Assembly: GCF_020382885.2 (NCBI RefSeq)
Contig: NC_058493.1
Location: 24,655,999-24,719,998, forward strand
Reading direction: 5' to 3'
Source: Scatophagus argus
Taxonomy: Eukaryota > Chordata > Actinopteri > Scatophagidae
DNA length: 64,000 bases
This document shows, piece after piece, positions 1 to 20,300 of the stretch. Under the pieces are notes generated by a model. That model was not told the DNA's origin and ran no database searches. It saw nothing but the letters and a program-made list of their open reading frames with translations. Both the position numbers and the translations under genes were made by a program. The first letter of the stretch is position 1, and each line of letters starts with the position of its first letter.

Positions 1-1811
1 TTGTTGACATAATTTATGGCATGGTTGAACTCCACAGGCTGGTTGTTCTGGAGAGGTGGCCCACCAGATGGTGTGCCGCTCACAGGAGTGTGGGACTGAA
101 CCGAAGGTGAACGTGGTGAGGCGTAGGATGGGATGGATGGGTTGGGCTGGCTGGTGGGTGTATGGGCTGGAGACTGAATCGGCTTTTGGGATTGACAGAA
201 AAGAAAGGCACATGCATGTCATTACACTCATGAAGTAAAGATTCAGTCTGGCGTGCAAAAAAAACAAGGCAGCAATATGCCTGAGACAAATCTTAAGATG
301 GCCATCAGAGTTTCCTTACAATTAACACGAGTTTGTTAACCCAAACTAAAGATGTCCATGCAAAATTGTATATATTCCAATCTACGATATACAATTCAGG
401 GGGTCAATTCCACAGACTATGTTGTACCTTGCTGGTTTTATTTGGAGCAGGTTGTGTTGGCATGGGTGTGTTAGTGGTGGCAGTAGTGTGCGGGCCAGCC
501 TGTGGCAGACTCTGGTGCTGGGTGTGGCTCGAAGGCTGGCTGGTTCCTCCACTTGCAGGGATGTTCTGAACAGAAATACCTTGCGGGGTGATGTAGTGGA
601 TCTGACCTGGCGTGGTCACATTGACTAGATCGTTTGTTTGAACCTCAATCTTATACCCGGGTGGCAAGAAAGTGTTAAAGCCCATAATGAGGTCTGGATG
701 GCCTTTGAAAAGCTGGGACACGCGGTTGATGACTCCAGGAGTGTCTATGCTGCAATAACAGAATGAATGACAGCAATTTAGTGTCTGACTCATCATCAGA
801 TTTGTCCATAAATAGTGGTCTGCATGTTACACGTTGAGAAAGATGGCAATAAGATTAGAACTCACCTCTGTGACTTAAACTCCTTCATAATATCAAGGAA
901 ATCATTATAAACTTGTGGCTGATTCCCAAACTGCAGCTTCACTTGATCCAGATAAGACAAGGCATCTTCAACCTATGAAATAAAGAGTAATGAAACAATT
1001 TTTTTTAAATTTGTTTCATTAGTGATTTCACATTCATATGTTAACACACTTGGCTCACATGGCTGTTTTTAATTCACTCTGGTAAACCCTAACCCTCTTT
1101 AAAATTTGCGTTTTTGTCCAAATATGGGTACCTTCAGTCGCTGAAACTGCTGCTGTCCTTGGGTTGAAGTCATGGGTGCAGTTGGATGAACGTGACTTTG
1201 GACCACTGTTGAGCCCTGGGTCTGAACTGCTAGGTTGTGCGCATGGGGACCAACATGAGGTGCCGTATTATGTCCATGTCCACTTGTGTTCTGAGGCATT
1301 GTAGGCACCTTTTAGGAAGAAATTTTAGGATTCATGAAACTTAAAGAGCACCTCATGTCCTTGGGAGGATTATATTCAACCAGCTCACAGTAAATAAGTT
1401 TAAAATGATTCATTAAAAAGTTATTTTCAAAGGTAGAAATCTAATGTCTTGTGCATGTTCTTTAATGGTTATGACTTATATCCATATATCCAATAAAAAC
1501 ACATTTTTTTGGAATTTGGTGCTTGATAAAGTTGATCTAAGACCCAAATCAATTTAACAGCAACTCTTGCTGAGGAGGTTCCTGTCCAAATAGAAAACAT
1601 TGGTACTGAGTCATACCTGGTAGCCTTGGGGGAGAGAATACTGGATGCCAGTGGATGGCTGCATGTTATCTGCAGCTGCCTCTATCACAGTAGGGGCTGG
1701 GGTGAGGACCCGGTGCTGGAAGCTGTCTGCAATACCTGTAACTGGGGGCCGACGTGACTGCTGTTGCTGGGGCGCAAATATTATTTCCTGGTCCTCCACA
1801 CGCCTCTTCAT
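1..1811 (-). CDS. sin3a: sin3a, 5' coding exons 1-5 (partial, runs off the left edge): SIN3 transcriptional corepressor scaffold
   Basis: Coding exons on the minus strand are 1811-1617 (start codon 1811-1809, begins MKRRVEDQE), 1308-1132, 972-866, 749-428 and 182-1, the last cut by the window edge. All junctions are GT-AG and the phases agree, giving about 327 codons. Exons 3-4 carry the first paired amphipathic helix (PAH1, about residues 120-190), recognisable from [36 protein letters not shown] and IEVQTND. A Pro/Ser/Thr/Gln-rich linker follows, then [15 protein letters not shown], which opens PAH2. By family knowledge SIN3A is the nuclear scaffold of the Sin3-HDAC1/2 corepressor, and PAH domains bind repressors such as MAD/MXD. 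The start is chosen by match to the family N-terminus; an acceptor at 1869/1868 places a short 5'UTR in the same exon. This is the intact copy; a broken tandem copy lies at 8444-14100. I cannot tell which teleost sin3a paralogue it is. Confidence 0.93.
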
Positions 1812-1868
1812 GGTATACGCATACTCGAAGGATCTAAAGTGGTCCAAGACAGATGCACAGTAAACAGG

Positions 1869-16610: not shown

Positions 16611-17332
16611 GAAGGCACTAATTGTGAAAATACTCTGCAACAAGACCTGAAATTGAAACCTTACTTAGTAAAAGTATGTAATTATTATCAGCAACATTTA
16701 TTATAAGTATCAAGTTCAAGTCATCAATCTCTAACAAGTCAACTTTGCATGAGTTCAGAAAAACATCCTTGTTTTCATCTTGTGACAATGCATTTCCCAT
16801 CTAATTCAAAATACTTTATTTAGCATAAATACATAAGTTTCTCAACCCATACAGAAGCATCTTTTAACTTGCAAATTTCAGCACCACCACAGAATGTGGT
16901 GGTGTAAAAAGTACAATATTTGACTCTAAAATATAGTGGAGTACAAATATAAAGTTAATAAAGTGGAAATACTCAGGTAGAGAACAAGTACTTCAAACTT
17001 TGCCAAATTTGACTGGGTTGTTTTCGAACAGCAAACAGCAATTGCCACATATTATGCCTCTATAGTACGGCACTTGAATAAATATACTTAGATACATTCC
17101 ACCCTGCCACCATACTCATGCTTGCATCATCCTTGTCTTTTCTTTCTTTTTTTTTTTAGCTTGTTTTAGCCAGGCTTGGATGCCATTTTAATTAAGATAA
17201 AGATTAAGGGTACATGCATGATGGAAAGAAGAAAGTGGAAGTAGTATAAAGCTGACAGGATGCAAGCAAAAACATCTCAAACAGACAAATGTAGTGCTAC
17301 GTGTTATTACAGATCATCATCTAGCAGCAGGT

Positions 17333-20300
17333 TCAGTAAAGGAAGATGTTTTGAAGAAATATGCAGACAGTTGTCAAAATCACTCCTGCTGCCATTGCTG
17401 AGGTCTGTTCTGGAGCTGCAGCAGAAAAGACAGAATTAACGGTATGTATGTATATTTCATTTTTTAAAAAATGACAGGTGATTTAAAATTGTTTAAGACA
17501 TTAAAGCAGCTACAAGAAACTTTCTTTTTGTTGTTGTTGATTCTGGCGCCCCTGTGGACAAAAGCAGTATGAGCACCACCGCCTCCTATAGTCAAGGTCT
17601 CGATCTGCTAGGCCATGTAGCAAAGCTCAGGTGAACTGAACGGCTATCAATAGTTCCTCGTAATGTTATTTCTTCTTAACATAAACCAACAGCAAGACAT
17701 ATTGTAGCTTGGTGAGCAGCTTCTTTTCTGAGGGTGTGAGACTCCTTACTTCACACTGCCATAAAAATCGATTTAATTTTATGACTTATTGCTTGGTGGA
17801 AAATTTGAGCTGGAGACAGACATAGCCAGTTTTCTAACTGATGGTCCCATTTGCATTTGTAGTTCATAGAGAGGTATTAGAGTGTTTCATAACCGGTTAA
17901 ACACTCCTGGTAGTACATTTAAAAGTGGTCAATGTAACTTGAATCATTACTTCAATTTTGAAAACATGTGATAACCCAGACGATTATTTATTATGAATTA
18001 CAGAAATGACAAAAGTGGACCTTGAAATACATATGTCTATACATACGGGGCCCAGAGCAGTTAACGGCTTTGTTTGTTCCTCTAGCCAGCTAAGCAGTTT
18101 GTAACATTAAATGAATGATGAACATCAAACAGCTCAATAATTCAATGCACAGAATTTTAAAACATATACATTATATAATATATTAAAACACAATACATTT
18201 TACTTTGCAAACTGCAATGTAACTCATAGCTCAGTGGATTGATATTTCATGTGATGAACTATCACAAATTCAAAAACACAGACAGACGAAGACATAGAGG
18301 CTTGTTTAGAGGATAACATCTTACCATGCGAGGCGGTGCTCTGGGAAGGTGTCACATTTGGAAGGACAGTCGTGACTGCAGCTGGTGCACCTGGTGTAGT
18401 TGATGCAGTGGTCGCAGTAGGGGTGACGTTTACTTTCGGTGCAGGAGTTGTGACCACAAGGCTAACTGCTCCTGAGCGTACGGTGTAGGAGCTGGTAAAC
18501 AGACTGCTGATCACAGCTCTCTGATTAAAGGAGCGAGTGCACAGACTGGGGCACTTCAGAGAGGGTAAGGTGCTGATGCACAGATTGACTGTGCACTGGA
18601 TATACATCTGAAAAATACAAAATAAATAGCTAAAATTTAGTGATGTGAAGAGACAGCTCAAACAAATTTCACACATGAATCGCTAGTTGTGAGAACATTG
18701 TAATAACACTTTTTGTCACTGTTTAAGAACTATGGAAAATGGGAAGGATTTAGTGTGTGGGATCACCAAAGCTATTACAATTCATCATTTGAATTTTAGG
18801 GCAACCTTACAGTGGAACAAGAGGAAAGGTCAGGGGATCACCAAAGATGGTAAGATTCATCCTCTGAGGTCATGGATGCCTGTAGAGAATTTCACGGCAA
18901 TCCTTGTAATTGTTATATGAATCAACATGCCATCCAAACAGCTTATCCAGCTGTTTCAGATGGCTTAATTGGGACTAAATCTCTAAAGCATCATGGAGAG
19001 AAAGCTTCTCAGCACTACCATGGCCTACACAAGGGTCTTACTCAAAGACGCAAACAGAACAATCCACCTCAAAGTCTATGTGTAAGTAACCTTGCACACC
19101 AGATGGTTTGTTACACAGAGCCATCTGAGAAATCATCATCTGAAAAGCTGCTTGGAAAAAGGTAAACACTTTCAAAACTGTCAGTCTGTCACAGGCTAAC
19201 TTAAACAAATTCGTTCACCAAACCATATGACTCAGCCGAAGCCACTCGAGAGAAGAGCTAAAACTGCTGCCTGTGAAAGTAAGTATATCGGTACAACAGT
19301 GAAAATTAATTTTCTCCTCAGACATGCCTTGGGAGATTTAGAACAGTACCCTGAAGAGGAAAACTGCCCAAATGTTTGTGTGTGTTGCATGAGAATACAG
19401 ACCGTTGATCCTTGATTGTCCACTTTGCTTAGATCGATGCGGTAAACCTTGGAAGTGCTTTTTGTTGTAGGAATTTCTACTGCGCTTTCGGAAGATGTAC
19501 ACCTGAAAGAAGAAGAAAAGAAAAGGTTATGATTCAAATTCAGAGGTCACCAAAACAGAGTCAATATTTTTTTCATACAATTTTACACAGTATAAGCCCA
19601 CTTCAAGATGGTAGCCTCAACCTATTAGAGGAAACAAGTCGATTGTCACTGACCCTTGCTCCAGGATAGTCCGGGATACTGCAAAGTCTTCCGTCTGAGA
19701 CTCAATACAATTGCTCACTATCATCTCAGCTCGATCAATGCTGCAGTTGGACATCACATGGAGATCCAGTTCCTTGATTTTGGACCCGATAGCTGGACTA
19801 GAAGAGGAGTTGCTGGCTGCTTCTCTGCGCACTCGATTTAGCAAGCCCTGGGAGGTGCGAAACGTGGGGTTGCGTGTGAATGTTGCAAACGGTCCCTCTC
19901 CTGGAAAGTGAACTTCTATCCAGATATCAAGTTCACCAAAGGTCTCCCTCTCTGTGGGCAGGCTGATCTGGTACTGCGGTCCCTTGACCTGAACTGCAGG
20001 TATACGGCAGGCCAGAGGGAGGATGAGGGACGGCTGGCGGCTGATGACCGAGTAGGGACGCACACTTTGCAAGGTGTTGGTGTAAACCAGCTCCGAACCA
20101 GATTGCTGGAGAAAAAAAGTAGAGAGTGAAGAAAAGTACAAACATAATTCACATTCATCTGAATAATCTGTCAGTGCAAAGGATTTTTGAATTTAATGAA
20201 TAACTTAACACCAGACTCAGAGGCAGTGTTTTATTGCCCTTTCTGGTTGAAAATTTTCCAGACTGTTTCACCTCAGGTGTGGTCAGAAATGTGCTCTGTT

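Follow-up and report, generated by a model that had tools for sequence, protein, structure and literature searches.

The window analysed here is a 64,000-bp stretch of the genome of the spotted scat, Scatophagus argus (C1:24655999-24719998 in a 570.7-Mb assembly of 48 contigs), the left part of which carries a sin3a gene and a neighbouring gene for a ZP-domain protein, both located on the minus strand. A segment that contains the 5' end of the former and the last exon of the latter is present twice, head to tail, as copy A and the adjacent copy B (Table 1). Five collinear blocks link the two copies in a BLASTN comparison of the first 20 kb with the window, and the three largest of these yield E = 0, which excludes chance. 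Copy A additionally comprises three stretches that lack a partner in B (1263-2722, 3781-3903 and 4195-4201). The limits of the unit, which a first-pass annotation made from the DNA letters had already placed at these very positions, are exact: CACAGGAG starts at both 81 and 8444, while AAATGAA closes at both 8443 and 18115. Since the flanking bases are unlike (T at 80 versus A at 8443, and C at 8444 versus T at 18116), the two copies meet without microhomology or insert. Position 81 lies inside sin3a coding exon 5, the reading frame of which runs on leftward unbroken, and position 18115 falls between the penultimate and the final exon of the ZP gene, in agreement with the breakpoints in a sin3a coding exon and the last ZP intron that the same annotation had described.

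Each of the two genes is completed by the outer half of one copy, again as had been proposed. Copy A together with the sequence to its left provides the exons of a Sin3a protein of 1291 residues (P0121), which is listed without a source and was taken as encoded by this genome; exon matches are tblastn rows of at least 80% identity, with some parts of P0121, including short exons, outside the kept rows. This protein unites PAH, Sin3_corepress and Sin3a_C domains, as an intact Sin3a does. Names in the databases assign the gene to the sin3ab type, relatives named Aa being less similar, and other matches to the Sin3 corepressor domain are found on C6 and C7, which fits the presence of other Sin3 genes that could compensate for it. 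In an analogous manner, the last exon of B and the gene body to its right give a complete ZP protein, the closest relative of which is S. argus LOC124061887 (99%). ZP-N and ZP-C domains were both found in this protein, which was stitched from its exons with some of the joins wrong. The database protein P0001 ends in TTVCIFLQ... and thus corresponds to the exon of B, while the spare exon of A reads TTVSIFLQ...; among 119 relatives, the C/S site is occupied by S in 48, G in 20 and C in 19, with other residues or a gap in the remaining 32. Hence, two adjacent copies in the same orientation have their breakpoints within two same-strand genes, the 5' part of one is joined to the 3' part of the other, and both parent genes are still complete, P0121 by way of A and the sequence to its left, and P0001 with the last exon of B.

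The unit appears to be confined to this locus. Three stretches of it (2000-4000, 4202-8443 and 81-2000) were searched in the whole assembly with scoring of the best candidates; the search recovered nothing but copies A and B, both on C1, apart from a dispersed repeat and two short matches, of 51 bases on C14 and 112 bases on C6 at 76% identity, the latter being a sin3 exon. The dispersed repeat (5379-5625) is contained in both copies and is 85-94% identical to at least 40 places elsewhere. Not a single N occurs in the 143,989 bases around the locus. The background for tandem repeats was taken from these surrounding 144 kb only, in which no further direct repeat of at least 300 bases was detected at an E value of 1e-20, besides one inverted pair of 345 bases. 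No Rfam match was obtained over 8400-18200 up to an E value of 0.1. An origin of the duplication by repeat-mediated recombination was considered and found unsupported, the junction being blunt.

The sin3a piece of B is broken by several separate lesions. One is the deletion of the 1460 bp that correspond to 1263-2722 in A and take in the exon with the start codon as well as the 5' portion of exon 2; together with a 29-bp deletion that shifts the frame, it bears out the loss of the start exon and the frameshift that had been noticed in the right-hand copy. The coding parts of A and B differ by 11 substitutions, seven of which alter the protein, including one stop (494 nonsynonymous and 151 synonymous sites). 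The chance of at least seven altering changes amounts to 0.0002 at a ratio of nonsynonymous to synonymous rates (dN/dS) of 0.05 and 0.007 at 0.1, but to 0.09, 0.59 and 0.91 at ratios of 0.2, 0.5 and 1, respectively, and strong constraint on these differences is thus rejected for dN/dS up to 0.1. Moreover, coding divergence (11 of 645 sites, 1.7%) is not below that of the remainder, as judged by the 0.64% in 4202-8443. The polarity of the changes was assessed with 113 proteins, namely the best 120 of 3069 Sin3a matches minus seven taken as belonging to the same fish, with isoforms and paralogues included. Against this set, six of the seven altering changes look derived in B, the B-like residue occurring in none of the proteins at these sites. 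The A-like residue is found in all 113 at L137, Q138 and G191, and in 109 (with 4 gaps), 93 and 82 (with 22 gaps) at the other three, whereas site 481, the seventh, gives an ambiguous picture of 20 B-like residues, 7 A-like residues and 84 gaps.

With regard to overall divergence, determined blockwise from substitutions over aligned bases only, A and B differ at 64 of 6728 positions (0.95%). The individual blocks range from 1.73% (81-1262) through 0.85%, 1.69% and 1.72% for the next three to 0.64% (4202-8443), and the sin3a half (37 of 2504) exceeds the ZP half (27 of 4224) with a Fisher p of 0.001, or 0.033 when clusters are merged by hand. Gene conversion, constraint or chance could each account for this gap. 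In teleosts, a few substitutions accumulate per 10^9 sites per year; if such rates apply here, the duplication would be roughly one to two million years old. The description of the event as frozen soon after it happened is too strong, given several separate lesions in B and a divergence of 0.64-1.73% per block.

Two mobile elements are present in B only. The SINE-like repeat at 10324-10578 recurs in at least 39 other genomic places at 97-100% identity, among the best 40 of 1442 candidates scored. It looks young and has no Rfam match up to an E value of 0.1. The second insert (11245-13891) combines a BED finger with a hAT dimerisation region, both of which characterise hAT-type elements, while the transposase frame at 12062-12901 on its own hits no Pfam family up to an E value of 0.001. 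Elements of the hAT class generate target-site duplications of 8 bp. At this insert, no 8-bp duplication was found, the flanks differ, and A holds 13 unrelated bases at the corresponding site; both a gain by B and a loss by A are possible for this reason. Partial copies with 98% identity reside on C13 and C24. Three further relatives with nearly equal scores lie within 95 kb on C5 (C5:24633156-24728016), possibly as a result of local duplication.

Table 1. Coordinates of the tandem unit and of the genes and elements associated with it (window positions; strand given where noted)
Feature	Position	Strand	Remarks
Copy A of tandem unit	81-8443		working sin3a 5' end and spare ZP last exon
Copy B of tandem unit	8444-18115		broken sin3a 5' fragment and last exon of the complete ZP gene
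Duplication junction	8443/8444		blunt; no microhomology, no insert, no N
Block 1	A 81-1262 / B 8444-9620
Block 2	A 2723-3432 / B 9619-10323
Block 3	A 3426-3780 / B 10579-10933
Block 4	A 3904-4194 / B 10933-11247
Block 5	A 4202-8443 / B 13889-18115
sin3a coding exon 5	1-182	-	extends left of the window; breakpoint 81 inside
sin3a coding exon 4 in A	428-749	-
sin3a coding exon 3 in A	866-972	-	PAH1
sin3a coding exon 2 in A	1132-1308	-	5' end (1263-1308) within the stretch deleted from B
sin3a start-codon exon, coding part (MKRR...)	1617-1811	-	A only; P0121 residues 1-66 match 1811-1614
B exon 5, 5' part	8444-8545	-	cut at junction; frame stops two codons beyond it
B exon 4	8791-9083	-	29-bp deletion (frameshift); in the original frame Q-to-stop, Y-to-C, G-to-R, A-to-T
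B exon 3	9200-9306	-	L-to-R and Q-to-K in PAH1
B exon 2 remnant	9490-9620	-	cut by the 1460-bp deletion
Span of three exons matching P0241	8837-9531	-
SINE-like repeat	10324-10578		B only; TAACTGA on both flanks; empty site in A
123-bp deletion in B (A 3781-3903)	10927-10935		short filler resembles neighbouring CCACTCAG
hAT-type element	11245-13891		B only; donor of a candidate noncoding 5' exon of sin3a some 55 bp away
ZP last exon, spare copy in A, coding part (...TTVSIFLQNIFLY)	7661-7743	-
ZP last exon in B, coding part (...TTVCIFLQNIFLY)	17333-17415	-	the one in database protein P0001
ZP gene body, upstream exons	18323-27507	-	limits approximate

Because both genes are encoded on the minus strand, the junction sets the sin3a 5' exons of B in front of the spare ZP last exon of A. 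Judged by sequence, this is the usual configuration of chimera-forming duplications. The inner halves had previously been regarded as redundant; they are indeed spare, but not merely redundant, as the junction joins parts of the two genes, and the first-pass annotation overlooked both this fusion and a 132-residue 'Sin3a-like' database entry that corresponds to the sin3a piece of B. Since the frame of exon 5 continues for just two codons past the junction before meeting a stop, the predicted product of the newborn duplication could have been a shortened Sin3a, some 303 residues long and limited to PAH1.

Taken together, the two copies very probably arose by a true tandem duplication of some 8.4 kb, whose breakpoints lie in coding exon 5 of sin3ab and, on the other side, in the last intron of the ZP-domain gene next to it upstream. 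This reading is based on the lack of N in 144 kb and the recovery of only A and B for the searched stretches, on several independent lesions combined with relaxed protein evolution in B, on coding divergence no lower than the rest, and on the SINE-like repeat, which is bordered by a repeat in B, the corresponding site in A being empty. Furthermore, PMC6940847 reports a k-mer heterozygosity of 0.37% for the female and 0.38% for the male of S. argus, and the two copies differ by about 2.5 times as much (0.95%). Mechanistically, the blunt junction would fit end joining, after which A would have kept function, so that the sin3a piece of B would have been free to decay and would have lost its start exon, its frame and promoter-proximal sequence. 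Several points weigh against this account. The substitution counts are compatible with dN/dS values from 0.2 upwards, the unequal divergence of the two halves is not predicted by one age and one neutral rate, heterozygosity at a single locus can top the genome mean, and two abutted contigs give a blunt junction as well. Moreover, according to PMC9516828, incorrect gap filling sometimes closes the join in false duplications, so that the lack of N is no proof; loss of sin3ab alone may be tolerated, which makes a null haplotype conceivable; and P0001 and P0241, the short entry mentioned above, probably stem from the same assembly, in which case they are not independent of it.

The foremost alternative is a false (heterotype) duplication, in which two diverged haplotypes were abutted at 8443/8444 and B is an allele of A; this is improbable. 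Unmerged contigs would show precisely such a blunt end-to-end overlap, and PMC9516828 documents partial genes falsely duplicated beside themselves in vertebrate assemblies, as adjacent, very similar copies resembling those seen here. In contrast to these cases, no assembly gap separates the present copies and no N was found at the junction or within 144 kb; no alternate haplotig was found elsewhere in the assembly for the three stretches searched; and the divergence exceeds the reported heterozygosity by the factor given above. In addition, A and B do not both look like working alleles (a yardstick of our own, not of PMC9516828), one copy being multiply broken, so that, as an allele, B would represent a null haplotype of sin3ab with several separate lesions and with missense changes at invariant sites. 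The earlier form of this argument, which held that B would be a null allele of an essential gene, is weaker than it was put, considering the sin3ab type of the gene, the Sin3 matches on C6 and C7, and maternal-zygotic sin3ab mutant zebrafish, for which PMC10498550 reports, with an allele disrupting residues 862-867, a small ventricle in 44% and an incompletely penetrant heart phenotype, a loss that may therefore be tolerated. The better argument is the combination of several independent lesions with relaxed protein evolution on B. A related proposal, by which the assembly wrongly fused an X and a Y haplotype (or another non-recombining pair) as A and B, with B as the degenerate sex-linked form, is hardly credible. 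It would draw on the young XX/XY system with Dmrt1 as candidate gene described for S. argus in PMC8909180, and on the resemblance of the decay of B to sex-linked degeneration; nevertheless, none of the seven DM-domain matches falls on C1. Three are located at 25.03-25.07 Mb on C4, two on C6 and one each on C17 and C23. The trio on C4 would represent the dmrt1-dmrt3-dmrt2a cluster, and C1 is consequently not the candidate sex chromosome.

Two further possibilities accept a true duplication and concern the fate of the sin3a piece of B, which on the preferred account is a decaying fragment. That this piece is still expressed as a short PAH1 protein, of 132 residues or similar, is quite unlikely. 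In its favour, a public S. argus protein of 132 residues named 'paired amphipathic helix protein Sin3a-like' (P0241) matches the sin3a exons of B, its sequence being that of the B fragment, frameshifted tail included. Six Sin3a models ascribed to the present fish show N-termini so short that none of the 113 other proteins compared shares this feature, and in five of the six (P0194-P0197 and P0202) odd first residues are joined to a point within exon 2, where a cryptic acceptor is located that would be needed in B, as the normal one is deleted there. On the other hand, P0241 is a gene prediction rather than a measured protein, and the L-to-R and Q-to-K replacements affect positions invariant in 113 of 113 proteins. 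P0241 scores as a PAH domain yet carries the frameshifted tail, and is probably a pseudogene fragment entered as a gene, although its name gives no hint of a broken tandem fragment. Regarding the five models, the possible donors are present in A as well as in B, and the first-exon donor sequence of isoform P0195, with a single occurrence in each copy, cannot tell the two apart; these models may be mis-mapped transcripts of B or ordinary alternative splicing of A. Slightly more doubtful still is a selected silencing, according to which a PAH1-only fusion under the full sin3ab promoter could interfere with intact Sin3a and would be harmful, so that the lesions of B (start exon, promoter-proximal hAT-type insertion, frame and PAH1 residues) would have been selected instead of being neutral, with a remnant short protein perhaps persisting.

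The linkage of the two genes is probably old. Among the matches listed, relatives of ZP and Sin3a were found by eye on records of identical length in 22 species, while Gambusia affinis belongs to the species in which the record lengths differ. In Scortum barcoo, a single prediction of 2003 residues (P0133) contains ZP-N as well as Sin3 domains and probably results from merging the two adjacent genes into one model. Both observations support an old linkage of the ZP and Sin3a genes, at least on the basis of these records, without thereby proving adjacency in each species. Separately, the end of a ZP model of Pampus punctatissimus (P0113) resembles the translated sin3a 5' region of the window, which suggests read-through or another model fusion.

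In general, the event belongs to a class already known and is of an ordinary kind, caught fairly early. As in known head-to-tail chimera-forming duplications, the breakpoints fall within genes and unite a 5' end with a 3' end. Unlike the chimera-forming duplications surveyed in populations, the present one comes from a teleost and from a single assembly, and its sin3a part is already broken. No literature title on this locus turned up, no search having been aimed at the locus itself. Were the duplication an artefact, both the ZP and the sin3ab model of the species would have to be corrected. If the duplication is real, it represents a case in which two genes were cut without harm to either, and in which the decay of the resulting chimera can be read lesion by lesion.

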